Below are positions 38,294 through 56,996 of a stretch of DNA of 64,000 nt, piece by piece; position 1 is the first letter of the stretch, and each line of letters starts with the position of its first letter. This DNA is from Rhodobacteraceae bacterium S2214 (GTDB lineage Bacteria; Pseudomonadota; Alphaproteobacteria; Rhodobacterales; Rhodobacteraceae). A program made the translations under genes and the position numbers. The notes below the pieces were generated by a model that was not told the DNA's origin, searched no databases, and was given only the letters and a program-made list of their open reading frames with translations. The stretch lies in the NCBI GenBank assembly GCA_025141675.1, contig CP081161.1, positions 3,325,501 through 3,389,500 on the forward strand, given 5' to 3'.

Positions 38294-38324
38294 TGTGATC
38301 ACAGCGACAAAAAGTGTGATCACA
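38294..38324. promoter_or_regulatory. Paired TGTGATCACA operators upstream of sdhC
   Basis: Perfect 10-bp palindromes at 38294-38303 and 38315-38324, starts 21 bp apart (two helical turns). The same pair with the same spacing stands before sucC, and a single copy precedes the GntR gene at 57 kb. Confidence 0.8.
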
Positions 38325-38372
38325 AAATGGGACGGTGGGTGGGGCGTCGCTGAAAGCGCGCGTCACCAAACG

Positions 38373-39401
38373 TCACACCGGCATCAGCGCCCAATAATCC
38401 AGATCAAGCAGGACATCAGGCAGATACTTACCATCCTCCCCCTTCAATTCTCCCGCTGCTCCCTTCGTCGCAACAAGCCGCAACCGGATCGCGCCCACGC
38501 CCGGTGCAGATGTTTCGGCAGTATCAAGCACTTCGGACCAAGCCCGCACAGTGTCGCCTGCAAAACAAGGGTTCGCATGTGCACCACCATTCAGCGCCAC
38601 AATCATCTGCGCATTCGCCAGCCCGTTAAACGACAGCGCACGCGCCAACGAAATTACATGACCACCGTACATCAACCGTTGTCCATCAGGGCGGAATGTC
38701 GCGTCAAAATGGACCTTCGCGGTGTTCTGCCACAACCGCGTCGCCATCATGTGTTCGGCTTCTTCAATCGTGACGCCATCCACGTGGTCAATAATTTCGC
38801 CGACTTCATAGTCGCTTAGCTTATGTGGCTCGCCCGCCAAGGCATAGTTATACCCCGTAAAATCAAGGCCCTTGGGGATGATCAAATCCGCAGGATCAAC
38901 AACTTTGGCAAGCTCCGGGATGACCGCCTCGGGCGCGTCACCTGCGCCCCGTTTGCGCACCATGACCCAACGCACATAGGACAGCAGCAGTTCGTTATGC
39001 TGATTCCACCCTTCGGTGCGCACCCAAACAACGCCGGATTTCCCGTTAGAGTTCTGCTTGATCCCGATGACCTCTGACGTTGCTGTAACAGTATCGCCGG
39101 GCCACAAGGATGTGTGCCAGCGGCCTTCGGCATAGCCCAAGTTCGCGACCGCATTCAGGGACACGTCAGGGACTGTTTTCCCAAAAACCGTATGAAACGT
39201 GATCAGATCATCAAGCGGGCTGAACGGCAGCCCGCAGTCCTGCGCGAACTTATCAGACGAATGCAGCGCATGCCGCGCAGGGTAAAGCGCGTGGTACAGC
39301 GCCCTTTCACCCATCTTGATGGTGCGTGGCACTGCGTGTGTGATCACATCACCAACGGCATAATCTTCGAAAAAGCGGCCTGCGTTCGTCTTGGGTGCCA
39401 T
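38373..39401 (-). CDS. mch: Mesaconyl-CoA hydratase (double MaoC domain)
   Basis: 342 residues, two hot-dog/MaoC halves. It hydrates mesaconyl-CoA to beta-methylmalyl-CoA in the ethylmalonyl-CoA pathway. The start is MAPKTNAGRFFEDYAVGDVI. Dehydratase-like segments are HSSDKFAQDCGLPFSPLDD in the first half and HVISLARALSFNGLAN in the second. The identification is strengthened by ccrA, ecm and mcl2 in the same 16 kb. A TGTGATCACA palindrome lies within its first 21 codons. Confidence 0.9.
   Translation of the reverse strand: MAPKTNAGRFFEDYAVGDVITHAVPRTIKMGERALYHALYPARHALHSSDKFAQDCGLPFSPLDDLITFHTVFGKTVPDVSLNAVANLGYAEGRWHTSLWPGDTVTATSEVIGIKQNSNGKSGVVWVRTEGWNQHNELLLSYVRWVMVRKRGAGDAPEAVIPELAKVVDPADLIIPKGLDFTGYNYALAGEPHKLSDYEVGEIIDHVDGVTIEEAEHMMATRLWQNTAKVHFDATFRPDGQRLMYGGHVISLARALSFNGLANAQMIVALNGGAHANPCFAGDTVRAWSEVLDTAETSAPGVGAIRLRLVATKGAAGELKGEDGKYLPDVLLDLDYWALMPV
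39339..39348. promoter_or_regulatory. TGTGATCACA palindrome inside the 5' end of mch
   Basis: An exact copy of the operator found before sdhC, sucC and the GntR gene, 53-62 bp into the coding sequence. It may be an internal operator or a codon coincidence (Val-Ile-Thr). Confidence 0.4.
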
Positions 39402-39604
39402 TATTGCTGACCTAACTTCATATCTGGGCTGTAAGGCGTATCGACATCTTTGGTCACCGCCTGTCCGCAGCGCATGACACCATTGGCATGGTCGTAGGCA
39501 TAGGTCGGGTCACCATACAGTTCCCATCCCTTGGATAGGGCCAGTGATACTTTGTGACAGAATTCGGAACTGTCGTCCTCGGTGAGCAGGCGGTAGATTT
39601 TCAT
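39401..39604 (-). CDS. DUF1737 small protein
   Basis: 67 residues. MKIYRLLTEDDSSEFCHKVS and KGWELYGDPTYAYD match the DUF1737 pattern as I remember it. It overlaps mch by one base and starts 3 bp after the NnrU stop, so it is part of the mcl2-nnrU-DUF1737-mch transcript. Function unknown. Confidence 0.8.
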   Translation of the reverse strand: MKIYRLLTEDDSSEFCHKVSLALSKGWELYGDPTYAYDHANGVMRCGQAVTKDVDTPYSPDMKLGQQ

Positions 39605-39607
39605 GTC

Positions 39608-40153
39608 TTATCCAAACGGGTTGTAGCCAAGTAGAATATGGATGGTCGCAACAACCAAGAAGACGACCACTGTGGCGATAACGGCGGTGATTTCTTTCTT
39701 GATCGGGACTTCGTGATACGGTCCGCGCGGTCCTTCTGCACGGTTGATCACAAGCATTTCGGCAATTGCCCAAGCGGCCATGCCACCAAATAACAGGAAC
39801 GACGGGCTATCGCCGTTCACGAGGATATGCGCCACAGACCAGACCAGCACGGCGGTCAATTGCGGATGCCTGATCGCTTTGGTGACGCGGGTTTTCGCGC
39901 CAGACGCTGCGAACAGGTAAAAGGCGAAAAGCATAAGCAGGTTATTGATGCCGGTCATTGCCGGACTGCGGCCCCAGTAGAAGGTGCCATCGGCAACCTT
40001 ATACCCGATCACCATCAATACGATGCCCGCGACAGATCCCAAGGCGACAATGCCTTTGCCCTTATCGCCAAATTTGGCCCGCTCTTTCGGGGCGATGCGT
40101 TTCCAGAAGTGAACACCTGACCAAAGGATCAGGCCGGCAAGTATATAGATCAT
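39608..40153 (-). CDS. NnrU-family integral membrane protein
   Basis: 181 residues with about five membrane helices. RHPQLTAVLVWSVAHILVNGD is the family core, in a domain shared with isoprenylcysteine methyltransferase-like proteins and first met in nitric-oxide reduction clusters. No denitrification gene is nearby, so its role here is unknown. It overlaps mcl2 by 4 bp. Confidence 0.85.
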   Translation of the reverse strand: MIYILAGLILWSGVHFWKRIAPKERAKFGDKGKGIVALGSVAGIVLMVIGYKVADGTFYWGRSPAMTGINNLLMLFAFYLFAASGAKTRVTKAIRHPQLTAVLVWSVAHILVNGDSPSFLLFGGMAAWAIAEMLVINRAEGPRGPYHEVPIKKEITAVIATVVVFLVVATIHILLGYNPFG

Positions 40154-40992
40154 GAATTTTCCAACGTGGCGATTGCTGCGGCTTTCGCCAGCGTCGCCCG
40201 TGCGGTCACAACATGCAAGTTCTCGACGATCTTTCCGTCGACAACGGCGACGCCCTGCCCTTCGGCCTCTGCAGTCTCGAACGCGGCAATCTGGCGTTCG
40301 GCCAATGCAATTTCGTCCTGCGATGGCCCAAATGCCGCGTTACAGATCGCGACCTGCGCCGGATGAATCAGCGTTTTCCCGTCGAAACCCATGTCGCGCC
40401 CTTCGGCGCATTCGATCGCCAAGCCGTCGTCGTCTTTGAACGCGTTATAGACCCCATCTAGCGCAGTGATTCGATTTGCACGCGCCGCGAGCAGACAATG
40501 CTGCAGCGCCGTCATCATGGCCGGACGGGTGCGCGCATTCAGGTCCTTCGCAAGATCGTTTGTCCCCATAACAAAGCCCGCAAGGCGCGGATGTGCCGCA
40601 ATGCTTTGTGCGTTCAGGATACCCAGCGGTGTTTCCATCATCGCCCAAATTGGCAGGTCCGGAATAAGCGCAGCCAGCGCATCTAGATCAGCGGGGCTAT
40701 CGACCTTAGGCAACAGCACAGCATCGCAATCCATGTTTGCGACAGCGGCTGCATCGTCAGCCCCCCACTGCGTATCTAGCCCATTGATCCGAACAATCTT
40801 TTGACGCGGCCCGTACCCGCCCGCAGCCAAGGCGTTGGTTAGTGTTTCGCGCGCGTCGACCTTCGCATCAGGCGCCACCGCGTCTTCGAGATCGAAGAGA
40901 ATGATATCAACAGGCAGGCCCCGCGCCTTGTCCAAGGCGCGATCCTTTGATCCGGGAATATAGAGGGCGGAACGGGCTGGGCGGGTTTCCAT
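40150..40992 (-). CDS. mcl2: HpcH/HpaI-type lyase, probable (3S)-malyl-CoA thioesterase
   Basis: 280 residues, citrate-lyase beta-like TIM barrel. RSALYIPGSKDRALDKA is the N-terminal CoA-binding block, DLEDAVAPDAK holds metal-ligand acids, and ETPLGILNAQ and GTNDLAKDLNA are later conserved blocks. The short length and the pairing with mch fit Mcl2, the malyl-CoA thioesterase of the ethylmalonyl-CoA pathway, rather than the longer lyase Mcl1. GGAAG precedes the ATG at 40992. Confidence 0.82.
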   Translation of the reverse strand: METRPARSALYIPGSKDRALDKARGLPVDIILFDLEDAVAPDAKVDARETLTNALAAGGYGPRQKIVRINGLDTQWGADDAAAVANMDCDAVLLPKVDSPADLDALAALIPDLPIWAMMETPLGILNAQSIAAHPRLAGFVMGTNDLAKDLNARTRPAMMTALQHCLLAARANRITALDGVYNAFKDDDGLAIECAEGRDMGFDGKTLIHPAQVAICNAAFGPSQDEIALAERQIAAFETAEAEGQGVAVVDGKIVENLHVVTARATLAKAAAIATLENS

Positions 40993-41014
40993 CGAATCTT
41001 CCTTCGCAATAATG

Positions 41015-41090
41015 TTGCGCAAACATGACCGCAAACCACACAATCATTCAACCCGAAATGCGCCGCAGCGCAGCAAAAACTGTTGCGCAA
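41015..41090. promoter_or_regulatory. Two TTGCGCAA palindromes upstream of mcl2
   Basis: Perfect 8-bp palindromes at 41015-41022 and 41083-41090, 68 bp apart; a degenerate half copy (TTGCGAAG on the minus strand) lies closer to the start. They could bind a regulator of the mcl2-mch operon, for instance of the RamB/PccR type, which uses TTTGCAAA-like sites. That link is an inference. Confidence 0.4.
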
Positions 41091-41196
41091 TGCACCGTCA
41101 CGGAGAATTAACCCTTTCCGGTCATAGTTATCTCAATACTTCATCATTGCCGGACGCAGGGTTTGCGTCCCTCTCCCAGCAAACAAGGTGAATACT

Positions 41197-41504
41197 ATGA
41201 AACGTCATTTCTACCTGCTCTCATTTGGCATCGGCGCCATGATTTTAGCCACGGCGCAAGCCCATTCAGCACCCGCATGTGCGGACCACGCAGCCGTCGT
41301 ATCACGGCTAGAAACCCTCTACGGCGAAGGTCGCCAAGCTATGGGGCTTGGGGCGAACAACACGGTCGTTGAGGTCTACGCATCTGCTGAAACTGGCAGT
41401 TGGACAATCACCGTGACCCAACCCGGTGGTCCGACGTGCCTTGTTGCAGCAGGTGAATCGTTTCAGCTTGAAACACCCGAACTGATTATCGACGGGAACG
41501 ACGC

Positions 41505-41508
<4 letters not shown>
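41197..41508 (+). CDS. Small exported protein of unknown function
   Basis: 103 residues. Signal peptide MKRHFYLLSFGIGAMILATA, cleaved after the following AQA or HSA. The mature part has two cysteines (APACADHAA and GPTCLVAAGES), likely a disulfide, and a GSWTITVTQPGG beta segment. The ATG at 41197 follows AAGGTG at 7 bases; a GTG at 41188 is less likely. It converges on the TSUP gene. Confidence 0.7.
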
Positions 41509-43313
<1,805 letters not shown>

Positions 43314-43335
43314 GGGCTCGCACTAAAGAATTGAT

Positions 43336-43364
43336 AAGGCGCCCCATCGCGGGCGCCTTTTTTT
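43336..43364 (+). terminator. Rho-independent terminator of mdh
   Basis: AAGGCGCCC pairs with GGGCGCCTT around CATCGC, followed by a T-tract. Confidence 0.9.
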
Positions 43365-43411
43365 ATGATCATTGCCAAAGCGAATCGCTTCACCGCATTC
43401 ATACTTTGATT

Positions 43412-43442
43412 TGTGATCACACCCAAAAAGACTGTGATCACA
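43412..43442. promoter_or_regulatory. Paired TGTGATCACA operators upstream of sucC
   Basis: Perfect palindromes at 43412-43421 and 43433-43442, again with starts 21 bp apart and an A-rich 11-bp spacer, as before sdhC. The sucC start is 98 bp downstream. Confidence 0.8.
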
Positions 43443-43539
43443 AATGTCGCTTTTTTAGCGCTATCATTGTTTTGGCAGTTTTTTATTAAACAATCATGTG
43501 TTTCAGTCGGTCCAAACTCACCCCAACCGAGGGACAGAC

Positions 43540-44733
43540 ATGAACATCCACGAATACCAAGCCAAAGCCTTGCTGAAATCTTTTGGCGCACCCGTCAGCG
43601 ACGGTCGTCCGGTTTTGAAAGCCGAAGATGCCAAAACAGCCGCTGGCGAACTGGATGGCCCACTTTGGGTTGTTAAGGCACAAATCCACGCAGGTGGCCG
43701 CGGCAAGGGTTCGTTTAAAGAAGCCGACGCTGGCGACAAAGGCGGTGTACGCTTGACGAAATCTGCGACGGAAGCTGCAGAAGAAGCCAAAAAGATGCTC
43801 GGCCGCACATTGGTCACGCACCAGACTGGCCCAGCTGGTAAGCAAGTGAACCGCATCTACATCGAAGACGGTTCTGGCATCGAAACAGAAATGTACCTTG
43901 CCCTGCTCGTCGATCGTCAAACATCCCGCATCGGTTTCGTTGTATCGACCGAAGGCGGCATGGATATCGAAGAAGTCGCCGAAAACACACCTGAAAAGAT
44001 CCTGAACTTCACAGTTGATCCTGCAACGGGCTACCAAGCCTACCACGGCCGTCGCGTCGCGTTTGCGCTGGGTCTGACTGGTCAGCAGGTCAAACAATGT
44101 GTTGGCCTGATGGGCATCCTTTACAAAGCATTCGTCGAAAAAGACATGGAAATGCTTGAGATCAACCCGCTGATCGTCACAGACAAGGGCGACCTGAAAG
44201 TGCTGGACGCGAAGGTATCGTTCGACGGCAACGCTGTTTATCGCCACCAAGATATCGCCGCCCTGCGCGACGAAACAGAAGAAGATCCAAAAGAACTGGC
44301 CGCTTCTAAATACGACCTGAACTACATCGCGCTTGACGGTGAAATTGGTTGCATGGTGAACGGTGCGGGTCTTGCGATGGCCACCATGGACATCATCAAA
44401 CTCTACGGTGCTGAACCTGCCAACTTCCTGGACGTTGGTGGCGGCGCGACAAAAGAAAAAGTAACCGAAGCGTTTAAGATCATCACATCAGATCCAAACG
44501 TCAAAGGCATCCTTGTGAACATCTTCGGTGGCATCATGCGCTGTGATGTGATCGCCGAAGGCGTTGTCGCCGCGGTGAAAGAAGTTGGCTTGAAAGTGCC
44601 ACTGGTTGTCCGCCTTGAAGGGACAAACGTGGAAGAAGGCAAAGCGATCATCAACAATTCAGACGTTGATGTAATTGCGGCTGACGACCTGAAAGACGGG
44701 GCGCAAAAAATCGTGTCTGCCGTCAAAGGCTGA
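43540..44733 (+). CDS. sucC: Succinyl-CoA synthetase beta subunit
   Basis: 397 residues, ATP-grasp subunit converting succinyl-CoA to succinate with nucleotide gain. [19 protein letters not shown] is the family start, [11 protein letters not shown] the nucleotide loop, and FVNIFGG-like [11 protein letters not shown] the dimer signature. GAGGGA precedes the ATG. A run of small exported-protein genes separates it from sucD. Confidence 0.97.
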
Positions 44734-44848
44734 GGCAGGATCAGGCAAGATCCAGAGCGGTGATCAGGGTGGGGCCTGATGTGACACGACGGTGTCAAAA
44801 TATGATCAGATGCGGGACCCTAAACCGCACGACTTGGGAAGTCTTACG

Positions 44849-45052
44849 ATGAAGTACATTTGCATATTCACCATGCTTACCGCTCTTGCTGCCTGTGACG
44901 CAGGATTTGGCGCGAGCCGGATTGGCGATACAATCCTTGAAACCGGCACACTGAACTGCACAGAAGGATCACCTCAGGAGCAAGCTCTTGTGGTTGGTAC
45001 GGAAGCTGATCCAGTGCGCTGCGGACCACAAACACAGCCAATCGTTCAATAA
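44849..45052 (+). CDS. Tiny lipoprotein 1 between sucC and sucD
   Basis: 67 residues: signal MKYICIFTMLTALAAC (lipobox LAAC), then a short polar mature part with Cys in LNCTEGSPQ and a C-terminal PVRCGPQTQP. The last block matches lipoproteins 2 and 3, so it is a diverged member of the same family. GGGAAG lies before the ATG. Function unknown. Confidence 0.68.
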   Translation: MKYICIFTMLTALAACDAGFGASRIGDTILETGTLNCTEGSPQEQALVVGTEADPVRCGPQTQPIVQ

Positions 45053-45075
45053 GTCTAAAAGTCTGTCTTTTAGAC
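45053..45075 (+). terminator. Perfect hairpin directly after tiny lipoprotein 1
   Basis: GTCTAAAAG pairs with CTTTTAGAC around TCTGT, beginning at the base after the stop codon. There is no T-tract; it may attenuate or stabilise the transcript. Confidence 0.5.
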
Positions 45076-45207
45076 ATTCAATCAAACTGAATAGGAGTGG
45101 ATTTTAACTGAATTGAGACTGCAACATCTCGTCAACTTTTGAACCGTAGTTCTGTTTACAAGGCACAATACTGTGCCACTGGATTACGACTTCAAAGGAA
45201 GATTGTC

Positions 45208-45414
45208 ATGTTAAAGCCAATGCTCGCACTGCTCACACTCGCCGCAACAACCGCTTGTATGGATGTCGATAGGGCGGATGTATCCCGGAACTACACAGGC
45301 AGTTTGAATGGCTGCCCGGGATTGACCGGAATCAGCGCGCAGTATTCCCAATCCGTTGCAGGCATGCCTGTACGGTGCGGTCCGCAGTCCGCTTCGCCAG
45401 TGACTTTCCGCTAA
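45208..45414 (+). CDS. Tiny lipoprotein 2 between sucC and sucD
   Basis: 68 residues: MLKPMLALLTLAATTAC signal, then a mature part ending in CPGLTGISAQYS and AGMPVRCGPQSASPVTF. Apart from the lipidated Cys it has exactly two cysteines, 22 residues apart, probably a disulfide. It is the same length as, and closely similar to, lipoprotein 3. AAGGAAGA precedes the ATG, and a perfect GGCACA-ATAC-TGTGCC inverted repeat lies 31 bp upstream. Likely periplasmic; function unknown. Confidence 0.7.
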   Translation: MLKPMLALLTLAATTACMDVDRADVSRNYTGSLNGCPGLTGISAQYSQSVAGMPVRCGPQSASPVTFR

Positions 45415-45423
45415 ATACACAAC

Positions 45424-45450
45424 GTTCCGGCGCGCCAATAGCGCCGGAAC
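45424..45450 (+). terminator. Perfect hairpin after tiny lipoprotein 2
   Basis: GTTCCGGCGC pairs with GCGCCGGAAC around a 7-base loop, 9 bp past the stop. No T-tract follows. Confidence 0.55.
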
Positions 45451-45586
45451 AACCACCAAAAAGCAGCCTAGGCAGCACGACTAAAAACGAAAGGACAAGA
45501 AAAAACCAGAATTGGGCCAAAGTTTGGCTACATCGCCCCACCATTTCAATTTTAAGACAAAATCGAAACGAATGGTGGATGTACTC

Positions 45587-45793
45587 ATGATCAAGCAATC
45601 AATTCTTGTTCTTTCAGCTCTAACTTTGACCGCATGCGTCGGGTCAGGCACAGAAACAGCAAACTTCGACAAACCAAGCACACAAGCTGCTTGCCCAGGT
45701 TTGACCGGCGTTAGCGCACAATATTCGGTCCAAATTGCAGGCATGCCTGTACGTTGTGGTCCACAAACAGAGAGCCCGGTTACCTTTCAATAA
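45587..45793 (+). CDS. Tiny lipoprotein 3 between sucC and sucD
   Basis: 68 residues: signal MIKQSILVLSALTLTAC, then CPGLTGVSAQYS and AGMPVRCGPQTESPVTF, matching lipoprotein 2 almost position by position in the C-terminal 33 residues while the linker after the lipid anchor differs. This is a recent tandem duplication in which the C-terminal half is under constraint. Function unknown. Confidence 0.7.
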   Translation: MIKQSILVLSALTLTACVGSGTETANFDKPSTQAACPGLTGVSAQYSVQIAGMPVRCGPQTESPVTFQ

Positions 45794-45835
45794 GGTTCGG
45801 GCCCCTTTGCCGCAAACCGCGGCGAGGGACGAACC
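45794..45835 (+). terminator. Nested hairpin after tiny lipoprotein 3
   Basis: Outer arms GGTTCG and CGAACC enclose an inner GCCGC / GCGGC stem, starting right after the stop codon. Confidence 0.45.
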
Positions 45836-45848
45836 AGAAGGGTGAAAC

Positions 45849-46040
45849 ATGCGGGGCACACCGATTAAACTGTTGGCGACAGGCTTCATGGCCTGTGGCC
45901 TTTTCGCATGCTCCAGCCCCGAACTCGTCGAACTACCAGTTCGTTCATCCCCCCAAGACCAAGCTCCCTATTCCCCTGACGTCGGCGATGCACCTTTGCG
46001 TGGCACCGCTGTGGCCATCGCATTGGCACCGGGGGAATGA
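45849..46040 (+). CDS. Small lipoprotein 4 between sucC and sucD
   Basis: 63 residues. MRGTPIKLLATGFMACGLFAC is a lipoprotein signal, with Cys in the lipobox LFAC. The mature part is short and acidic, with LPVRSSPQDQAP where the family above has PVRCGPQ; this may be chance. AAGGGTG precedes the ATG, and the stop overlaps the next start (ATGA). Confidence 0.55.
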   Translation: MRGTPIKLLATGFMACGLFACSSPELVELPVRSSPQDQAPYSPDVGDAPLRGTAVAIALAPGE

Positions 46041-46537
46041 TGATGGTGCGCACATTTTCAATCACTTTGTTGATGGGATTGTCGAGCACTGCTTTCGCGC
46101 AGGATCTCGCAAACGCACCATGGACAGCCGACGAATTGAAGACGGTGTTCCATACCGCCTGCGTCGCGTCACAACCCGCTTTACTGGAACGCCGCACTGA
46201 AGACATGGCCGCATCCCTTGGGTTTGCCACGATTGACGGCGACGCTGATCTGACTGTGACGTCGGCCGATGCTGCATTGACGATTGCCGTTGACGGCAAC
46301 CCGATAGAAGCATCCTGCACGATGACCCTACCCGTCAGCGCACACACGACTGATCCCGTTCAGATGCACGGCGCCCTTGGTGCCTTGTTTGCAGAACTGA
46401 ACGCGGACGAACGCCCCAACGAAGAAATGATCAGCTCTGGTTTCAATTGGAACTGGGCATCTGACGACACTTACTACGACGCAATTCTCACACAAGATCA
46501 GGATCAATTGACCGTCTCCTTGACGGTCAGCCGCTAA
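46037..46537 (+). CDS. Exported protein of unknown function between sucC and sucD
   Basis: 166 residues. Signal peptide MMMVRTFSITLLMGLSSTAFA, cleavage before QDLANAPW. The mature part has two cysteines (HTACVASQP and EASCTMTLP) and a repeated beta pattern (ADLTVTSADAALTIAVDG, DQDQLTVSLTVS). It is coupled to lipoprotein 4 by a 4-bp overlap and followed by sucD after 59 bp. No family recognised. Confidence 0.65.
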   Translation: MMMVRTFSITLLMGLSSTAFAQDLANAPWTADELKTVFHTACVASQPALLERRTEDMAASLGFATIDGDADLTVTSADAALTIAVDGNPIEASCTMTLPVSAHTTDPVQMHGALGALFAELNADERPNEEMISSGFNWNWASDDTYYDAILTQDQDQLTVSLTVSR

Positions 46538-47564: not shown

Positions 47565-50525
47565 ATGAACGACCAATCCCCCAACGACGTTTTCCACGCC
47601 TCTTCCTTCATGCAAGGGCATAACGCGGAATATATCGAACAGCTTTATGCCCGCTATGCCGACAATCCCGGCGCTGTCGACGAAAGCTGGCAGGCTTTCT
47701 TCCGGTCGCTTGGCGACGCACCTGCGGATGCAAAGGCCGAAGCCGCTGGCCCGTCTTGGGGTCGCACCGATTGGCCGCCCGTGCCAAACGACGATCTGAC
47801 AGCAGCACTTGATGGCCAATGGGCCGCCGAACCAGAGGCCGCGGGCAAAAAGATTAAAGGCAAAGCTGCCGAAAAGGGTGTTGGTCTGTCCGAAGAACAG
47901 GTGCGTTCCGCCGTTCTGGATTCCATCCGCGCGTTGATGATCATCCGCGCATACCGTATTCGCGGCCACCTCATTGCCGACCTCGACCCGCTTGGTATGC
48001 GCGACAATGACCCGCATCCCGAACTTGATCCCGCGTCCTACGGTTTCACCGCCGCTGACATGGACCGCCCGATTTTTATCGACAATGTGCTGGGCCTTGA
48101 AATCGCGACGATGAACGAAATCATCGCGATTGTCCGCCGCACCTATTGCGGCACATTTGCCCTGCAGTACATGCATATTTCGAACCCTGATGAAGCGGGC
48201 TGGCTGAAAGAACGCATCGAAGGACTGGGCAAGGAAATCAGCTTTACCCAAAACGGACGGAAAGCGATCTTGAACTCCTTGGTGGAAGCCGAAGGTTTTG
48301 AAAAGTTCCTGCACGTCAAATACATGGGCACGAAGCGTTTCGGCCTGGATGGCGGCGAAAGCCTGATCCCTGCGATGGAACAGATCATCAAACGCGGTGG
48401 TCAATTGGGTCTCGAAGACATCGTCATCGGCATGCCGCACCGCGGCCGTTTGTCGGTCCTCGCCAACGTTATGGAAAAGCCGTACCGCGCGATTTTCAAC
48501 GAATTCCAAGGCGGGTCGTTCAAACCTGAGGATGTCGATGGATCGGGCGATGTGAAGTACCACCTTGGTGCGTCATCTGATCGGTCTTTTGACGACAATA
48601 CGGTCCACCTGTCCCTGACTGCGAACCCGTCCCACCTAGAGGCTGTGAACCCTGTTGTTCTCGGGAAAGTCCGCGCCAAGCAGGACCAAAAGAACGACGA
48701 AGACCGCACAAAAGTCATGGCGATCTTGCTGCACGGTGATGCAGCCTTTGCTGGCCAAGGTGTTGTCGCCGAAGGTTTCGGTTTGTCTGGCCTGAAAGGT
48801 CACAAAACCGGCGGCACGATGCATATCGTTGTGAACAACCAAATCGGATTTACAACTGCTCCGCATTTCAGCCGGTCCAGCCCTTATCCGACGGACATCG
48901 CCCTGATGGTCGAAGCCCCGATTTTCCACGTGAACGGGGACGATCCAGAGGCGGTTGTGCACGCGGCCCGCGTTGCGACCGAATTCCGTCAGAAGTTCCA
49001 CAAAGACGTCGTTCTCGACATCATTTGCTACCGCCGCTTTGGTCACAACGAAGGCGATGAGCCGATGTTCACCAACCCGGTAATGTACAAGAAGATCAAA
49101 AAGCAGAAGACCACGCTGACTTTGTATACCGAACGTTTGGTCAAGGACGGCCTGATCCCGGAAGGCGAAATTGAAGACATGAAGGCCGCGTTCCAAGCGC
49201 ACCTGAATGCCGAATTTGAAGCGGGCAAGGAATACAAACCGAACAAGGCCGATTGGCTCGACGGGAAATGGTCGCATCTAGATCGTCACAAAGACGACTA
49301 TCAGCGCGGCGTGACCGCGATTGATGAGGCGACCTTTAAGGCTGTTGGTAAGGCTCTATCGACCGCACCGGAAAACTTCCCGCTGCACAAGACGGTTGCC
49401 CGTCTGCTGGATTCAAAAGCGAAAATGTTTGAAACCGGCGAAAATATCGACTGGGCCACCGGCGAAGCCTTGGCTTTCGGGTCGCTCCAGACAGAAGGCT
49501 ACCCTGTCCGCCTGTCCGGTCAGGATTGTACGCGCGGCACTTTTAGCCACCGTCATTCCGGCCTGATCAATCAGGACAACGAAGATCGGTACTACCCGCT
49601 GAACAACATCCGCAAGGGTCAAGCCCAGTATGAAGTCATCGATTCCATGCTGTCGGAATACGCGGTGCTTGGGTTCGAATACGGCTATTCACTGGCCGAA
49701 CCAAATGCGCTGACATTGTGGGAAGCCCAGTTTGGCGATTTCGCCAACGGCGCCCAAATCATGTTTGACCAGTTCATCAGTTCTGGTGAAAGCAAATGGT
49801 TGCGGATGTCCGGTCTCGTTTGTCTGTTGCCACATGGGTACGAAGGCCAAGGGCCCGAACATTCAAGCGCCCGTCTGGAACGTTTCCTGACGATGTGTGG
49901 AGGTGACAACTGGATCGTTGCGAACTGTACGACGCCTGCGAACTACTTCCACCTGCTGCGCCGCCAGCTGCACCGGACGTTCCGTAAACCGTTGATCTTG
50001 ATGACACCAAAATCCTTGCTGCGTCACAAGTTGGCGGTTTCCAAAGCCGAAGAATTCACGACAGGATCATCGTTCCACCGTGTTCTTTGGGATGATGCCC
50101 AGCAGGGCAATTCGGACACGGAACTGGTTGCGGACGACAAGATCAAGAAGGTCGTGATGTGTTCCGGTAAGGTCTACTATGACCTGCTGGAAGAACGCGA
50201 CGCGCGCGGCATCAAGGACGTCTATATCCTCCGGTTCGAACAGTTCTATCCGTTCCCTGCGCAGTCCGCAGTGAACGAACTTGAACGGTTCAAGAATGCC
50301 GAAATGGTTTGGTGTCAGGAAGAACCCAAGAACCAAGGTGCTTGGTCCTTTATGGAACCAAACATTGAATGGGTTCTGACCCGTATCAAAGCGAAAAACA
50401 CGCGTCCGGCCTACGCCGGTCGTGCCGCCGCCGCATCCCCTGCGACCGGTTTGGCCAGCCAACACAAAGCACAGCAAACAGCCCTCGTTGACGATGCGCT
50501 GACGATTAAAGGATCAAAGAAATGA
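47565..50525 (+). CDS. sucA: 2-oxoglutarate dehydrogenase E1 component
   Basis: 986 residues, thiamine-diphosphate enzyme of the TCA cycle. An N-terminal E2-docking segment ([20 protein letters not shown]) is followed by the ThDP site [12 protein letters not shown] with [11 protein letters not shown], and the transketolase-like C-terminal half with [11 protein letters not shown] and [18 protein letters not shown]. Full length for the family. It overlaps sucB by 4 bp (ATGA). Confidence 0.97.
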
Positions 50526-51706
50526 GCACCGAAGTTCGCGTCCCAACACTGGGTGAATCCGTGACAGAAGCCACGGTCGCCACATGGTTCAAACAACCCG
50601 GCGACACTGTCGCGGTTGATGAAATGCTGTGTGAATTGGAAACAGACAAGGTGACCGTTGAGGTGCCATCGCCCATCGCCGGCACGTTGTCTGAAATCGT
50701 CGCTGCAGAAGGCGAAACAGTAGGCGTCGACGCCCTGCTGGCACAAATCAGCGAAGGCGACGCTGCACCAGCGCCCGCTGCCAAGAAAGAAGAACCAAAG
50801 GCAGAAGCCGCACCAGCCCCGGCTGCTGCAACGAAGGACGTTGAAGACGCGCCATCCGCGAAAAAACTGATGGCCGAAAACAACCTGACAGATGTGCAGG
50901 GCACTGGCAAAGACGGCCGTGTGATGAAAGGCGACGTGCTGAACGCGCTGGCCACGCCTGCCCCTGCCGCCGCCGCCCCACGTGCGCCGGTCGCTGCTGA
51001 TCAGGCTGCGCGCGAAGAACGTGTGAAGATGACACGCCTGCGCCAGACCATCGCAAAACGTCTAAAAGACAGCCAAAACACCGCCGCGATGCTGACCACC
51101 TACAACGAGGTCGACATGACCGAGGTGATGGCGCTGCGCAACGAATACAAAGACCTGTTCTTGAAGAAACACGGTGTGAAGCTTGGCTTCATGTCCTTCT
51201 TCACGAAGGCCTGCATTCACGCGCTGAACGAAGTGCCAGAAGTGAACGCTGAGATCGACGGCACCGACGTGGTCTACAAAAACTACGTCAACATGGGCAT
51301 CGCCGCAGGTACGCCAACGGGTCTTGTCGTCCCAGTGATCAACGATGCCGATCAGATGTCCTTTGCGGGTATCGAAAAGGCAATCGGTGCGATGGGCGCA
51401 AAAGCCCGTGACGGCAAACTGTCCATGGCGGAAATGCAAGGCGGGACCTTCACGATCTCGAACGGCGGTGTCTACGGTTCCCTCATGTCGTCCCCAATCC
51501 TGAACCCCCCGCAGTCCGGCATCTTGGGCATGCACAAAATCCAAGACCGCCCGATGGCGATCAACGGTCAGGTCGTGATCCGTCCGATGATGTATCTGGC
51601 GCTGTCCTACGACCACCGGATCGTCGACGGCAAAGGTGCGGTGACGTTCCTTGTACGGGTGAAAGAGGCGCTCGAAGATCCACGTCGGTTGTTGATGGAT
51701 TTGTAA
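50522..51706 (+). CDS. sucB: 2-oxoglutarate dehydrogenase E2 (dihydrolipoyl succinyltransferase)
   Basis: 394 residues. One lipoyl domain with the modified lysine in [12 protein letters not shown] near residue 43. An Ala/Pro linker, the peripheral-subunit-binding domain ([20 protein letters not shown]), a second Ala/Pro linker, and the catalytic domain ending with the [10 protein letters not shown] active-site motif. Translationally coupled to sucA. Confidence 0.97.
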
Positions 51707-51726
51707 AGAACGGTAAACGCATTTGT

Positions 51727-51761
51727 AGTGCTTGAAAGACTGAAAAAGTCTCTCAAGCACT
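51727..51761 (+). terminator. Long hairpin after sucB
   Basis: AGTGCTTGA and AGACT pair with AGTCT and TCAAGCACT around GAAAA, with a single A-C mismatch, 14 pairs in all. No T-tract. It probably separates sucB from the next small genes or protects the sucAB mRNA 3' end. Confidence 0.6.
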
Positions 51762-51789
51762 TAGTTCTGCAAGCGTATCGGATGAACCT

Positions 51790-52266
51790 ATGAGGCGATC
51801 TATCTCCACAATAATCGCGGGCGCACTATTCGGCTTATTCATTGGTTCGTCAATGGGACTGGCGTTTGGTGGTTCCGCATACAATGCCGCTTGGTTTTTT
51901 ACTCCACTTGGCGCTTTCATTGGCTGGCTAGTTCACAAATCGAGTGCTTCAGAAGGTGTGGATCTGGAACAAACAAGAGATTTCGATGCGCTCGATTCCA
52001 GTGCGGAGAAGGTAGGGAAGGCTTCGGCAAATATCTTTACCTCTCTATTAAAGATCTTGGCCTCTCTCTGGAATTTTCAAATTGATCTTTTGGACACGCT
52101 TGGGCTTCTTCAGACTTTCGTCAAACAACCACTTTTGTTTGCAGGGTTATGTGTGGTCATTTCAGTGTTTTTTCCTCCATTTTTGGTGATCTATTTTTTA
52201 TCATGGTTGGGGGCGAGCCATTTTGGCGCAACAGAGAATACCAAGTATAGAGCAAAAAACGCATGA
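51790..52266 (+). CDS. Small integral membrane protein of unknown function
   Basis: 158 residues with two N-terminal helices (TIIAGALFGLFIGSSMGLAF and the AWFFTPLGAFIGWLV segment), a polar middle and a C-terminal hydrophobic pair (LLFAGLCVVISVFFPPFLVI). It overlaps the MAPEG gene by 4 bp. The sequence is more AT-rich than the suc genes around it, and it may be a later insertion between sucB and lpd. Confidence 0.65.
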   Translation: MRRSISTIIAGALFGLFIGSSMGLAFGGSAYNAAWFFTPLGAFIGWLVHKSSASEGVDLEQTRDFDALDSSAEKVGKASANIFTSLLKILASLWNFQIDLLDTLGLLQTFVKQPLLFAGLCVVISVFFPPFLVIYFLSWLGASHFGATENTKYRAKNA

Positions 52267-52655
52267 CACCTGAACTCACAGTTCTAGCCCTAGCTGCCGT
52301 TCTCCAAGCGGTTCAGTTCATGCTCTATTCCGTCTTCGCGAACCTACAGGTCGGCCCGAAAAAGGCGATGGGTCCGCGTGATACGCATATTACGCTGACA
52401 GGCACCGCTGGTCGTTTGCAGCGCGCCATGAACAACCATTTCGAAGGGTTGATCTTTTTCACCATCGCCGTCGTGGTAGTCGTGCTTGGCGACAAGGCGA
52501 CCGCATTCTCCGCAATTTGCGCGTGGACCTATCTGGGTGCCCGCGTCCTCTATGTCCCTGCTTACACATTTGGATGGACCCCTTGGCGGTCGCTCATTTG
52601 GTTCGTAGGGTTCACCGCAACCATGCTGATGATCCTGTCAGCGCTTTTGTTCTAA
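52263..52655 (+). CDS. MAPEG-family membrane protein
   Basis: 130 residues, four helices. GTAGRLQRAMNNHFEGLIFF is the conserved first cytoplasmic loop (R-x3-N-x2-E), and GARVLYVPAYTFGW the second. The family includes glutathione-dependent enzymes, but bacterial members of this branch are uncharacterised. Located between sucB and lpd. Confidence 0.85.
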   Translation: MTPELTVLALAAVLQAVQFMLYSVFANLQVGPKKAMGPRDTHITLTGTAGRLQRAMNNHFEGLIFFTIAVVVVVLGDKATAFSAICAWTYLGARVLYVPAYTFGWTPWRSLIWFVGFTATMLMILSALLF

Positions 52656-52727
52656 CATCGCGGTGCACGCGTTGTGCACGTATTGTGCACGCGAGTCACA
52701 GCCCAATTTCGCCCTAGGAGATCCCCC

Positions 52728-54116
52728 ATGGCTAACTACGACGTCATCATCATCGGTTCAGGTCCCGGCGGCTATGTATCCGCAATCCGCTGCGCCCAGC
52801 TTGGTCTGAAAACGGCCATTGTTGAGGGTCGCGAAACGCTTGGCGGGACCTGCCTAAACATCGGCTGTATCCCATCCAAAGCATTGCTGCACGCCACCCA
52901 TATGCTGCACGAAGCCGAACATAATTTCGGCGAAATGGGCCTAAAGGGCAAAGCGCCGTCTGTGGATTGGAAGCAGATGCAAACCTACAAAGCCAACGTC
53001 ATCGGTCAGAATACCGGCGGTGTTGAATTCTTGATGAAGAAGAACAAAATCGACTGGCTGAAAGGCTGGGGATCAATCCCTGAAGCGGGCAAGGTCAAGG
53101 TCGGCGACGACGTCCACGAGGCGAAGAACATCATCGTCGCCACAGGGTCCGAACCATCCGCCCTGCCGGGCATTGAAGTCGATGAAAAGACTGTCGTGAC
53201 ATCAACCGGCGCGCTTGAGCTTGGCAAAATTCCAAAGAAATTGGTCGTGATCGGCGCGGGTGTCATCGGGTTGGAGCTTGGGTCTGTTTATGCCCGTCTT
53301 GGTGCCGAAGTGACTGTAATTGAATTCCTCGATGCAATCACACCAGGTATGGATGCCGAGGTTGCGAAGACATTCCAGAAACTGCTGATGAAACAGGGTC
53401 TGAAATTCACGCTGGGCGCTGCTGTTCAAGGCGTTGAGACCAAGAACAACAAGGCCAAAGTGACGTATAAACTACGCAAAGACGATTCCGAGCACACAGT
53501 TGACGCGGACACCGTGCTGGTTGCCACTGGCCGTAAACCCTACACAACGGGTTTGGGTCTGGATGCGCTTGGCGTTGCGATGTCCGACCGTGGCCAGATC
53601 AAAACCGACGCGAAATATGCGACCAATGTCGCTGGTATCTATGCGATTGGCGATGCGATCGACGGCCCAATGTTGGCCCACAAAGCTGAAGACGAAGGCA
53701 TGGCTGTCGCGGAAGGCATCGCAGGCCAGCAGCCCCATGTGAACTACGACGTGATCCCGGGCGTGATCTACACGCACCCAGAGGTTGGCAGCGTCGGCAA
53801 AACTGAAGAACAGCTGAAGGAAGAAGGCCGCGCCTACAAAGTCGGCAAATTCCCGTTCTTGGGCAACGGCCGCGCCAAGGCGAACTTTGCCGGCGACGGG
53901 TTTGTAAAGATGTTGGTAGATGCGTCATCCGACCGGATTTTGGGCGCGCATATCATCGGCCCAATGGCGGGCGATTTGATCCATGAAATCTGTGTCGCGA
54001 TGGAATTTGGCGCGGCTGCCGAAGATATCGCACGCACATGCCACGCGCACCCGACCTATTCCGAAGCGGTGCGTGAAGCCGCCCTCGCCTGTGGCGACGG
54101 CGCGATCCACATGTAA
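52728..54116 (+). CDS. lpdA: Dihydrolipoyl dehydrogenase (E3)
   Basis: 462 residues. FAD motif [10 protein letters not shown] at about 10-19, redox-active disulfide [12 protein letters not shown] near residues 44-49, NAD motif [10 protein letters not shown], and C-terminal active-site [13 protein letters not shown] precedes the ATG at 52728. It reoxidises the lipoyl groups of the 2-oxoglutarate dehydrogenase complex encoded just upstream. Confidence 0.96.
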
Positions 54117-54117
54117 A

Positions 54118-55143
54118 TCAATCTTTGCTGGCCTCTTTCGCGGGGCCAGCAACGCCCACATGCTTGCGCCACAAATCGCGAAACGGCAGCGTGTAAATCT
54201 TCCAAACGGATGTATATTCCGTTTCTTCCACACCATAGAGCCCGAATTTCACGTCCCGATCATCGTCGGGCATGTGGTAGGTTTTGAACAATACATCCCA
54301 AACCGGAAACATGAACGCGAAGTTCTTGTCGAGGTGATCAGGATGGCAGCTGTGGTGCACGTGATGGTGCGCGGGCGACGGGAACACCTTTGACCAGTTC
54401 CCTTTCCACCGTAGCCAGACATGCGAATGACGCAGGTGGTAGCCGCCGACGTTGAAAAGAAAGAAGAACAGCGGCACGCCCAGCACCTCTGGCGGGCGCG
54501 GCACGTATCCAAAGACAAGGGCGACGACGCCCATCAAAACGCCGTACCCTGCCCCGATCCCGATGCCGTAGGCGATGTTATCAACCGGATGTTCGCGGAA
54601 ATTCGACAGCGGATGCATGACCTCTGGGCTGTGGTGTACCTTGTGAAAATTCCACAAAAACGGGATCTTATGCTGCAGGTAATGGATAAAAAACCCGATG
54701 AAGTCCCCGACCGCGATCGCGATGATCAGGTAGATCAACGAAATCGACATGCCTTTGATCGTCAGCACTTCGTTCCAGTTGAAAGCGACCAGTTCGTTTG
54801 ATCCGGTGATCAGCTGAAACGTGAACGCCAATGTGCCGGCTAGCAGTCCGATGTGGATCAATTTCATCGTCAGTTCGTTGATCACGAAGAAACGAAGATC
54901 AAGCCACGCCGATGCGTTGCTCCAGACCTTTTTCGGAAACAGAAACGCAAGGAACGACGGTGTATTGTCGCCATTGCGAGGCCATGTCTTGCGGTAGACG
55001 AACAGCGCAAACAAAGCGCTGGTCATCAAGTAAACCCAAAACAGACGGTGATCCGAGCTTGTTGGGTACGCGATCACAGCCCAGAAGCGATCCGACAACG
55101 TCGTCGAAATCCGCTCGAACAATGCGAGTAATGTGTCTGTCAT
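54118..55143 (-). CDS. Sterol desaturase / fatty acid hydroxylase family membrane protein
   Basis: 341 residues, four to six helices and the di-iron histidine boxes: HYLQHK, HKVHHS, and HHHVHHS near the C-terminal side, plus HLRHSHVWLRW. It oxidises a lipid or carotenoid-like substrate at the membrane; the specific substrate is unknown. It converges on lpdA with one base between stops. Confidence 0.87.
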   Translation of the reverse strand: MTDTLLALFERISTTLSDRFWAVIAYPTSSDHRLFWVYLMTSALFALFVYRKTWPRNGDNTPSFLAFLFPKKVWSNASAWLDLRFFVINELTMKLIHIGLLAGTLAFTFQLITGSNELVAFNWNEVLTIKGMSISLIYLIIAIAVGDFIGFFIHYLQHKIPFLWNFHKVHHSPEVMHPLSNFREHPVDNIAYGIGIGAGYGVLMGVVALVFGYVPRPPEVLGVPLFFFLFNVGGYHLRHSHVWLRWKGNWSKVFPSPAHHHVHHSCHPDHLDKNFAFMFPVWDVLFKTYHMPDDDRDVKFGLYGVEETEYTSVWKIYTLPFRDLWRKHVGVAGPAKEASKD

Positions 55144-55323
55144 GCCCTATGACCTGCTTTTGATATTTCTTCTTTTGTCATTAAAATCTTAAAAAATGGG
55201 CTCAAATACAACGAAAATGGGTCGATACCGCGCCAGCCCATAGATATGCGACCCATCAGACACGCACTGGCGCGATCGCATTGCATTTCATATCTATGAT
55301 ATGTCCAACGAAGGAACCCTGAT

Positions 55324-55632
55324 GTGTCCCCCGAAGTTACCATTCTGATCATCAACGCGGCTTTGTTGGCCTTTGCATATCTGTGGGCTTACCCGAGTTT
55401 GCCGCACAAGAGCTGGAATGCCATCATGTGGCGCGATGTTGTGATTTCAGTCGCGGCCTTGGTTCTGGCTGGCGCATTATTTTTAGGGCGCGATCTGGCT
55501 TTTGATATGATCCTATTTAGCACGAATTGGTTCATATTTTCTTTTGTGACCATGAGCTTAATGGAAATACCGTTGTTTATCTGGTTTGCCCGCAAGCATG
55601 GTCTGCGTTTTGATGAATCGGATGAATCCTAA
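55324..55632 (+). CDS. Small three-helix membrane protein
   Basis: 102 residues from a GTG start with GGAA upstream. Helices: VTILIINAALLAFAYLWAY, VVISVAALVLAGALFL and the segment WFIFSFVTMSLMEIPLFIWF. The C-terminal tail is acidic. I recognise no family. Confidence 0.6.
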   Translation: MSPEVTILIINAALLAFAYLWAYPSLPHKSWNAIMWRDVVISVAALVLAGALFLGRDLAFDMILFSTNWFIFSFVTMSLMEIPLFIWFARKHGLRFDESDES

Positions 55633-55737
55633 CAGACGAGCAGGTTGAATTTGTCATACTCATGTCCGACTGCAACCACACGTTAACCACATTACCGCGC
55701 TAACCTTGCTCAACTTAAACCTTTGTTGGACAGGCAA

Positions 55738-56334
55738 ATGCAGCGTTTATTGATGGCTCTCCCGATCCTTATGCTCGTGGCAACACCTGCGTCTGCGGCA
55801 ACTTTGACGACGCTTTGGGTGGTGACGAAATACGGCGGAATCGTTTTAGGGATCGTTCTGATTTTGTTTGTTGCGATGCGCAAACGCCCCCGTAAAGAGA
55901 CAAAGATCGAAGTTCCATCATTGCCGGAAACGCCAATGTTCTCGGAAACATTGCTTACGATGATGTTCCACACCGCACGGCTGAGCGGCGACATCAGCCA
56001 GAACACGCTTCAGGTGTTGTTGCGGTCGTACAAACATTTGACCGGCAATACTGTCAGTCAAAAGATGATCACTGCGAAATATGCACAGACAACAGAAGCT
56101 GACGAACTGCTTGGAATTGTCGCGCCATTTTCCCGGATTGAGCGTGATACGATCATGAGAGCCTGCGTTGACGTGGCCGCCGCCGATGGTGCCTTGACCA
56201 GCGCCGAGCACGATTTTTTGATGGCGCTTAGCACGGCCTTGGGCCATGACGCTGCCGTCTTCCGTGATCAAATTCGCATGGCTTTGCATACCGATAGACC
56301 ACGGACCATCGTCCCGACTGCGATGCCTGCTTAG
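55738..56334 (+). CDS. TerB-like domain membrane/exported protein
   Basis: 198 residues. A hydrophobic start, MQRLLMALPILMLVATPASA, may be a signal or anchor; a second hydrophobic segment (YGGIVLGIVLILFVAM) is a clear membrane helix. The C-terminal part has a TerB-type helical motif, VDVAAADGALTSAEHDFLMAL. The role of TerB-like domains is not settled (metal or stress response). The ATG at 55738 replaces a TTG at 55723. Confidence 0.65.
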   Translation: MQRLLMALPILMLVATPASAATLTTLWVVTKYGGIVLGIVLILFVAMRKRPRKETKIEVPSLPETPMFSETLLTMMFHTARLSGDISQNTLQVLLRSYKHLTGNTVSQKMITAKYAQTTEADELLGIVAPFSRIERDTIMRACVDVAAADGALTSAEHDFLMALSTALGHDAAVFRDQIRMALHTDRPRTIVPTAMPA

Positions 56335-56978
56335 GCTTTCAACATCCGCAGCCCTTGTGTTGCGTCTGTCCGGACTGACAATCGCAAACCGGGTTCATCC
56401 CCTGCCTTCAACGCCGCGAGGATCAGTTTGTGGTGATAAGGCGGTTCCGTCCGATTGAGCCGCCCGTAAAGCGCACGCATCGTCGGTCCAAGTTGCAACC
56501 AAACCGTTTCCATCACCGCCAACATCGCGGGCGCTTGGGCCCGCAGGTAAAGCGTGCGGTGGAATTCAAGGTTCATACGGATGTAGCCGGATGCGTCGTG
56601 CCGCGCGACCATCTGACTGACACCTTGGTTGATCGCCTCAAGCCGTTCGATCAGCGCAAAATGCGCCCGCGGCAAGGCACGACTGGCCAATTCCGGTTCG
56701 ATCATCGCGCGCAAGGTCGCGAGTTCTTCGATCCGGTCGTTGGACAGTTCTGGCGTCGTTACACGTCCCGATGACGAAAGCGACAAAGCCCCTTCCGCCA
56801 CCAAACGCCGCACGGCTTCGCGCGCGGGCGTCATGGAGACATCAAAATCCTTACCGATCCCCCGCAACGTCAGCGCCGCCCCAGGATCAATTTCACCATG
56901 CATAATTTGGGTACGCAAAGCGCGATACACACGTTCGTGGGCAGCAGCGGTTGGATCTAGGGGACGTGGCGCAATCAT
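56331..56978 (-). CDS. GntR-family regulator, FCD (FadR) subfamily; candidate TCA-cycle regulator
   Basis: 215 residues. N-terminal winged helix (RVYRALRTQIMHGEIDPGA, then TPAREAVRRLVAEGAL) and a C-terminal all-helical FCD ligand domain with the metal-site histidines around LEFHRTLYL and PPYHHKL. An exact TGTGATCACA palindrome lies 9-18 bp upstream of its ATG, the same sequence found in pairs before sdhC and sucC, so autoregulation and control of those operons is likely. From memory, R. sphaeroides AkgR is a GntR-type regulator of TCA genes, and this may be its orthologue. Start at 56978 (MIAPRPLDP). Confidence 0.85.
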   Translation of the reverse strand: MIAPRPLDPTAAAHERVYRALRTQIMHGEIDPGAALTLRGIGKDFDVSMTPAREAVRRLVAEGALSLSSSGRVTTPELSNDRIEELATLRAMIEPELASRALPRAHFALIERLEAINQGVSQMVARHDASGYIRMNLEFHRTLYLRAQAPAMLAVMETVWLQLGPTMRALYGRLNRTEPPYHHKLILAALKAGDEPGLRLSVRTDATQGLRMLKA

Positions 56979-56986
56979 GCGATCTT

Positions 56987-56996
56987 TGTGATCACA
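56987..56996. promoter_or_regulatory. TGTGATCACA operator before the GntR gene
   Basis: Single perfect palindrome within TTTGTGATCACAAAA, immediately upstream of the regulator start codon, where bound protein would block transcription initiation or early elongation. Confidence 0.75.

Follow-up and report, generated by a model that had tools for sequence, protein, structure and literature searches.

The 64-kb window analysed here (the whole stretch of DNA) raises the question of whether one short palindrome, TGTGATCACA, ties two TCA cycle operons to a regulator gene, and how proteins bound at such sites would act on the promoters behind them.

The palindrome in the window and in the genome

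The original prediction placed six exact copies of TGTGATCACA in the window, and all six were found, at 38294, 38315, 39339, 43412, 43433 and 56987. An order-1 model built from the window gave a chance expectation of 0.095 copies for the window and 5.7 for the 3.86-Mb genome; the claimed excess over chance (six against about 0.1) therefore held. Four copies form two exact pairs, TGTGATCACA-N11-TGTGATCACA. One pair (38294..38324, minus strand) lies upstream of sdhC (37770..38153, minus strand; TIGR02970, E 3.2e-36), which is followed by ORFs named by eye as sdhD and sdhA. The other (43412..43442, plus strand) lies upstream of sucC (43540..44733, plus strand; NF001913, E 6.4e-174), followed by ORFs named by eye as sucD, sucA, sucB and lpd. 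The spacing is 21 bp at both, identical as proposed. A single copy (56987..56996, minus strand) precedes the gene designated akgR (56331..56978, minus strand), which encodes a 215-aa GntR/FCD regulator with a GntR DNA-binding domain (PF00392, E 8.9e-13) and an FCD effector domain (PF07729, E 1.4e-18).

The whole genome contains ten exact TGTGATCACA places, four of which lie outside the window. Three of these four are within long ORFs (named by eye as aldehyde dehydrogenase, 5'-nucleotidase and adhesin), and one is on contig C4, a short distance 5' of an ORF, suggesting that the copies outside the window are background. With up to three mismatches allowed, the sdhC and sucC pairs were the only pairs at 21-bp spacing in the genome, and no third pair indicating a wider regulon was found in this whole-genome scan. 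The genome-wide scan that the original prediction had proposed thus supported the link to TCA genes for the pairs, while the four further single copies stayed at background level. A 14-mer extension of the word, with up to two mismatches, occurred at 32 genome places, compared with five for the reversed word, which is a poor control because it contains CTAG, a tetranucleotide rare in many bacteria. Nine imperfect 14-mer places were inspected, and all nine were inside stop-free frames of at least 150 aa.

The sixth copy (39339..39348, minus strand) lies inside mch, where it spells the codons D-V-I-T-H. It had been counted in the operator set. Among 36 mch sequences the exact word was present in that of the window alone and its 8-bp core in five, the window included; since the copy spells conserved codons, it was ruled out as an operator and judged a coding coincidence.

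Pairs keep their spacing and targets across Rhodobacteraceae

The exact pair was present in 188 of 295 Rhodobacteraceae genomes, whereas a rough model predicted 0.08 pairs by chance over all 295. The reversed control word gave no pair in this count, which is weaker evidence than it appears because that word also holds CTAG; elsewhere the reversed control was not empty (G036, G367, G524). Pairs with identical flanks were counted once. The pair sets combined the listed part of the genome listings with a scan of named genomes, and their totals are therefore lower bounds. Among the pairs listed, at least 234 of 256 preceded sucC (169) or sdhC (65), the window's own included in each, and 22 were not assigned to either gene. 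Among the 76 distinct Rhodobacteraceae pairs listed in a count that allowed 31 different spacings, 70 were spaced at 21 bp, five at 20 bp and one at 31 bp. The spacing claim rests on this set, since the scan of named genomes asked for spacings of 20 and 21 bp only.

That the palindromes arose by chance and serve no function is in keeping with the mch copy and with the four found elsewhere in the genome. It does not fit an exact pair in so many genomes with fixed spacing and targets; we regard this explanation as practically negligible. The two pairs refute it, and the akgR site does so with less force.

A few pairs lie apart from this pattern. One extra pair with one mismatch (L156, genome G042) precedes a lyase gene (PF00206) read as fumarase, and no nameable TCA gene was found behind the third pair matches of G045 and G022. 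In genomes of the class outside the family, pairs occurred in three of 380, at spacings of 22, 24 and 22 bp, and the 3-kb loci around them had no SdhC or SucC match. A Brachybacterium pair (20 bp, no TCA gene match) was taken as chance. Maritalea mobilis and Robiginitomaculum sp. (a MAG), both with names outside the family, carry a 21-bp pair before sucC, indicating that one of the two, the labels or the boundary of the family, is not strict.

The regulator occurs with the pairs. AkgR matches at E 1e-20 were found in 272 of 290 Rhodobacteraceae genomes, with more than one match in many of them. Among 149 genomes listed, the 21-bp pair (up to three mismatches) was lacking in 13 of the 16 without an AkgR match better than 1e-50 and in eight of the 133 with one (hand count; Fisher p 6e-11). 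This and all other p-values are nominal, because the sequences of one family share ancestry. As exceptions, G009 lacks such a pair despite a strong AkgR relative, and three genomes, G019 (91% complete), G096 (77% complete) and G114, have pairs and no good AkgR match.

The multiple matches leave room for another GntR/FCD protein of the same genome to bind the pairs, with AkgR controlling only itself. The motif GTGATCAC is also proposed for a Pseudomonas regulator 32% identical to AkgR, so related FCD proteins can share it (PMC6365646, available part). Such a protein is very unlikely to be the pair-binding factor, given that the identical 10-mer precedes akgR in 20 of 30 loci (the window's own included) and that the pair is absent from most genomes that have no good match to AkgR.

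The GntR/FCD protein of the window is very probably the AkgR ortholog, as judged from family, motif, targets and neighbourhood: it has both domains, and the GTGATCAC operator core lies before the sdh and suc operons. The resemblance to AkgR of R. sphaeroides proposed for it at first thus stands, with this qualification. No R. sphaeroides record was among the 80 loci listed in the scan of named genomes. Comparisons of AkgR used the best 30 loci by score, the window's own among them, of the 272 genomes with a match. The metal site of FCD proteins consists of an Asp plus three His; in these 30 AkgR sequences N136, H140, H183 and D205 were invariant, and D205 occupies the expected position of the third His.

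Helical phasing between the operators and the predicted promoters

Towards the promoter, A/T-rich stretches recur from the pair every 10-10.5 bp, with the same phase at sucC and sdhC. In the sucC set (n=156) the power was 1.01 at period 10, compared with 0.026 for the 99% point of the null; in the sdhC set (n=60) it was 0.73 at period 10.5, compared with 0.073. The A/T peaks were at +10.2 and +10.3, respectively. At sucC the A/T content was highest at the operator end (0.88-0.99 at +9 to +12). The phase of the pattern was tied to the pair and did not follow the start codon.

The sdh -35 had been placed directly beside the paired sites. That element is not conserved and was rejected as the conserved promoter; what relatives keep instead is a GTGAC core some 59 bp downstream of the pair. 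In the window, the putative sdhC -35 is GTGACT (38230..38235, minus strand; +59 to +64 after the pair), whose GTGAC core is kept in relatives. A weak candidate -10, TAGAAC (38206..38211, minus strand), was picked by eye at 18-bp spacing, and relatives are A/T-rich at +80 to +86. The core was present in 54 of 65 sdhC upstream regions and missing in 11, and in 41 of these 54 its T fell between +58 and +61 (scored as the last GTGAC past +30; L091 alone has two, at 59 and 87). Overall, -35 core positions were near +49, +60, +71 or +81, that is, at whole helical turns: 12 of the 13 off-mode regions were within 1.6 bp of this ladder, which was picked after the data were seen, so that the chance value of 4e-6 is nominal. 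At sucC, the promoter scan used a profile trained on the modal class; the window's gap from pair to start (97) puts it in the minority class, and no sucC promoter was recognisable by eye in the window.

These data suggest a mechanism that we consider probable. TGTGATCACA would be the dimer operator of AkgR, and two AkgR dimers, 21 bp apart on one helix face, would bind cooperatively upstream of sdhC and the suc operon. With the -35 set at -36, the pairs would lie at about -88/-109 at sucC and -99/-120 at sdhC. The two sites keep helical phase with one another and with the predicted promoters, as expected of a tandem same-face activator. The 10-bp-phased A/T minor grooves between operator and -35 would offer the alpha-CTDs of RNA polymerase a same-face path to the regulator, or would bend the DNA intrinsically. 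Such a path would require the -35 to keep whole-turn spacing. A point against this model is that activators usually work from sites closer to the promoter than -88.

The phasing and the whole-turn spacing may instead serve DNA curvature, or looping of AkgR to RNA polymerase, and not groove binding by alpha-CTDs. In sequence, curvature shows as A/T phased at 10-10.5 bp across four turns, as here. Set against this, the A/T peak nearest the -35 is where a proximal UP subsite would be expected (about -42, if the -35 is placed correctly), and we hold curvature to be possible and somewhat less likely than not to be the purpose. The curvature and alpha-CTD readings are both compatible with the present data.

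A different proposal is that AkgR binds the pairs mainly as a repressor or modulator, with activation left to another factor such as CceR and the phased A/T stretches serving as ordinary UP elements. UP elements usually have A/T at -42 and -52, and we take RSP_1663 to be the CceR locus. In the available parts of the sources, R. sphaeroides CceR is reported to act on both succinate dehydrogenase and 2-oxoglutarate dehydrogenase (PMC11323563), and RSP_1663 is predicted to regulate succinate dehydrogenase (PMC4344238). However, AkgR is named a transcriptional activator in the available part of PMC6365646, and, provided that the promoters are placed correctly, the pair would be too distant to act by blocking RNA polymerase. 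Moreover, the A/T maximum at the operator end, without fading away from the -35, and the phase locked to the pair do not suit ordinary UP elements. We consider this proposal unlikely and retain activation by AkgR from the pairs.

The akgR operator and what the architecture adds

The single site was said to adjoin the start of the regulator gene, and it does: it ends 8 bp before the akgR ATG (56978, minus strand). It extends to the palindrome TTTGTGATCACAAA (56985-56998), the sole perfect 14-mer in the genome. A putative -35, TTGACC (57008..57013, minus strand), starts 35 nt before the ATG and shares bases with the stop codon of the YgjP-like gene that lies upstream. Of the 30 akgR upstream regions examined, seven lack the GTGATCAC core; of the 23 with it, 21 show TTGAC 17 nt ahead of the operator, and in 20 the distance from TTGAC to the start codon is 34-36 nt. 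The akgR transcript is thus predicted to be nearly leaderless, and the operator, A/T-rich on both flanks, would overlap the presumed -10. This position suggests that AkgR represses its own gene. Activation at the pairs combined with autorepression at the single site, as originally predicted, fits best, with promoters and autorepression still putative.

The two-site architecture had been suggested as the informative part, and for the 21-bp pair it is. The AkgR element would then consist of two dimers 21 bp apart (G/C on the inner, A/T on the outer flanks), an operator-phased A/T ladder and a promoter that shifts by whole turns, kept over most of the family. Whether this amounts to a long-range, phase-locked TCA activator, its level set by tighter binding at the one site over the akgR promoter, is in our judgement evenly balanced. 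With this regularity, a motif list for a known regulon becomes a promoter mechanism that can be tested in a large bacterial family with marine and phototrophic members, and the 31-bp element is a cheap marker for AkgR control of TCA genes in Rhodobacteraceae genomes.

The AkgR regulon of Rhodobacter sphaeroides was reportedly described by Imam, Noguera and Donohue (mBio 6:e02461-14, 2015), and we take RSP_0981 to be AkgR. The available part of PMC4344238 calls RSP_0981 simply a GntR family member and predicts that it regulates sdh, sucCD and the 2-oxoglutarate dehydrogenase genes, and that of PMC6365646 cites GTGATCAC among the sites of the transcriptional activator AkgR. Regulator family, motif and targets are like those found here, and activation is likewise proposed here. 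The link of regulator, operator and targets is therefore not new, being in print for R. sphaeroides; the addition of the present analysis is the architecture. The available parts of these two papers describe neither the 21-bp pair nor the A/T phasing, nor do they mention whole-turn promoter spacing or an akgR site overlying the -10. PS417_07240, the GntR-like protein of the Pseudomonas simiae deoxyribonate cluster for which GTGATCAC is proposed, is described there with a single palindrome before its own cluster and no TCA targets (PMC6365646).

Among solved structures, the best sequence match to AkgR was the FCD regulator McbR/YncC (PDB 4p9f; E 1.1e-21, residues 17-203), which we take to be that of E. 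coli; unlike AkgR, it is not named as a TCA regulator. Tandem class III CRP promoters of E. coli have two upstream dimers on the same face, contact alpha-CTDs and need helical phase. The arrangement proposed here from sequence would resemble them in all three respects, although the regulator families are unrelated and the AkgR sites, at a spacing of 21 bp, both lie a long way upstream.

Genomic distribution of the operator word

The original prediction had located six exact copies of the 10-bp palindrome TGTGATCACA, the presumed AkgR operator, in the window, and each was found at its predicted position. An order-1 model gives an expectation of 0.095 copies per window and 5.7 per genome. The whole 3.86 Mb genome contained ten exact places, six of them inside the window; of the four others, three lay within long ORFs and one on contig C4 before an ORF. 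Thus, the word is at background elsewhere in the genome, and the exact word is enriched in the window only. The genome-wide scan that had been proposed placed the 21-bp pair (two copies 21 bp apart, ≤3 mismatches) at two loci only, sdhC and sucC, and the word was not common elsewhere. The copy inside mch, the mesaconyl-CoA hydratase gene, had been counted in the operator set; it was rejected as a coincidence of codons.

The extended palindrome TTTGTGATCACAAA had one mismatch-free place in the genome, at the regulator gene. With ≤2 mismatches it occurred at 32 places, compared with 5 for the reversed word, and all nine imperfect places inspected were within long open frames. Immediately upstream of sdhC, in the same orientation, comes the mesaconyl-CoA hydratase gene, and beyond it a CitE-type lyase gene (38373-40995).

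The pair and its regulator across relatives

An exact pair (4 to 34 bases between) was found in 188 of 295 family genomes, for which a rough model expects 0.08 pairs. The reversed control pattern was absent from all 295; this control is weak and was not relied on because the pattern includes CTAG, which is scarce in many bacterial genomes. It did turn up in other searches (G036, G367 and G524). Spacing among the 76 distinct family pairs fetched was 21 bp in 70, 20 in five and 31 in one. In the class, 7 of 385 genomes carried a pair: four of five examined from the own family and 3 of 380 outside it, the latter with spacings of 22, 24 and 22 bp.

We collected 256 pairs, either exact or with ≤3 mismatches at 20 or 21 bp. 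Among those listed, 234 front sucC (169) or sdhC (65), including the two of the window; the remaining 22 include the three class genomes outside the family. Also among the 22, L288 and L109 each have the pair between mdh and sucA and no adjoining sucC match, indicating that it remains with the operon even when sucC is not its neighbour. Four pairs assigned to neither gene (L197, L241, L259, L282) were near a locus end. In L156 (G042:C16, 493-523), another of the 22, a 21-bp pair with one mismatch precedes a PF00206 lyase gene taken to be fumarase; in some relatives fumC may thus belong to the regulon. Upstream of sdhC in L321 (G125:C13, 514-565), three operator-like sites lie 21 bp apart each, the third imperfect. 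In the scan of named records, 80 of 119 stretches were listed, nearly all Rhodobacteraceae or Rhodobacterales by name; among these, Maritalea mobilis (L207) and a Robiginitomaculum MAG (L210) carry a 21-bp pair before sucC, reflecting either mislabelled records or a wider range of the pair. The Brachybacterium pair (L238) looks like chance.

Under the relaxed scan (≤3 mismatches), 128 of 149 family genomes had a 21-bp pair, and a regulator match at E 1e-20 was present in 272 of 290. With the regulator limit set at 1e-50 and two genome tables tallied by hand, the relaxed pair was absent from 13 of 16 genomes without a regulator match versus 8 of 133 with one (nominal p 6e-11, as family sequences share ancestry). 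Of these eight, G055, G069 and G133 carry 20-bp pairs, and G061 and G087 showed an exact pair in the broader-spacing scan. G009, G122 and G147, each with a 1e-50 match, gave no pair in the relaxed or exact pair scans; rewiring is possible in G009, which has a strong AkgR relative but no 21-bp pair (≤3 mismatches). The opposite exceptions, a pair without a 1e-50 match, were G019, G096 and G114.

Promoter position and A/T phasing

Downstream of the sucC pair, A/T content rises near +10, +21, +31 and +41, every 10 bp (n=156; power 1.01 against a null 99% point of 0.026), and downstream of the sdhC pair the period is 10.5 (n=60; 0.73 versus 0.073); the comparison covers sucC and sdhC regions. The two genes had the same phase (+10.2 and +10.3); upstream of the pair the periodicity was nearly absent (0.051, 0.033). 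In a smaller sucC set (n=55), power was 1.05 when anchored on the pair and 0.11 on the start codon.

After the A/T block of sucC, a TTT at +47 to +49 (0.75, 0.68, 0.49) was taken as a putative weak -35. A GTGAC core occurred beyond +30 in 54 of 65 sdhC regions: 41 fell between +58 and +61, with four at 48-49, five at 70-71, three at 80-81 and one at 87. Twelve of these 13 off-mode cores fell within 1.6 bp of a 10.7-bp ladder, chosen after the data were seen; the thirteenth region (L091) has a second core at +59. Mutual identity among the 13 segments was at most 42%. A candidate sdhC -35 adjoining the pair had been proposed; as the conserved promoter it was rejected, since the conserved -35 lies some 59 bp away, which argues for long-range, not adjacent, activation.

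The sucC promoter was placed by a promoter profile, with regions grouped by pair-to-start gap. For gaps <100 it came 10-11 bp nearer in 18 regions of 26, and for gaps of 100-104 it came 10 bp nearer in four of seven. At 105-115, 93 of 117 regions had it within 1 bp of the mode. At 116-135 it was 20-22 bp further in four of eight and at the mode in the other four; with still longer gaps, 7 of 11 regions had it at the mode. With its gap of 97, the window sucC falls into the short class, and its promoter was not placed with confidence. Together with the sdhC ladder, these classes indicate that the promoter is mostly shifted by whole turns.

The regulator, its own site and comparison with AkgR

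The regulator gene, a probable akgR (56331-56978, minus strand), encodes 215 aa with GntR and FCD domains; its closest solved-structure match was McbR (E 1.1e-21). FCD residues N136, H140, H183 and D205 were invariant across 30 sequences. A third His of the canonical FCD metal site is expected where D205 stands, so the site looks altered. A GntR/FCD gene from outside the family (L077, G405), with 34% identity to AkgR, adjoins a TGTGATCACA pair of 24-bp spacing; the motif may be common to a wider FCD group.

In the 30 best-scoring loci, window included, from the 272 genomes with a match, exact TGTGATCACA lay upstream of akgR in 20 and the GTGATCAC core in 23; seven had neither. Among the 23 with a core, the distance from TTGAC to the operator was 17 nt in 21 loci, and that to the first in-frame start codon was 34-36 nt in 20. 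In the window, the presumed -35 TTGACC (57013-57008, minus strand) precedes the ATG by 35 nt and shares bases with the stop codon of the upstream YgjP-like gene. This spacing would put the transcription start at or beside the ATG and the operator over the -10; the transcript is predicted to be leaderless, and autorepression by occlusion would be the natural reading.

Of 20 akgR sites, 14 have TT ahead of the 10-mer and 10 have AA behind it. Exact 21-bp sucC pairs (n=143) had A/T outer flanks (0.82-0.99 per position) and G/C at the inner operator-adjacent bases (A/T 0.16 and 0.16); at sdhC pairs (n=32) the outer flanks were weaker (0.56-0.94; inner 0.28 and 0.09). From sequence, we infer that the single akgR site may be stronger and the paired sites weaker and cooperative.

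Earlier work had already described AkgR with its motif and targets, and PMC6365646 calls it a transcriptional activator; we take AkgR to be RSP_0981 of R. sphaeroides. The accessible text of PMC4344238 gives predicted control of sucCD, sdh and 2-oxoglutarate dehydrogenase genes by RSP_0981, a GntR-family protein; thus, at its core the finding extends established biology to a new genome. The literature searched on AkgR and TGTGATCACA, available in part, held no description of the pair, its phasing or the whole-turn spacing, some of which the AkgR mBio 2015 paper may contain. This promoter architecture is possibly new, and it is the testable part of the finding beyond the known AkgR regulon.
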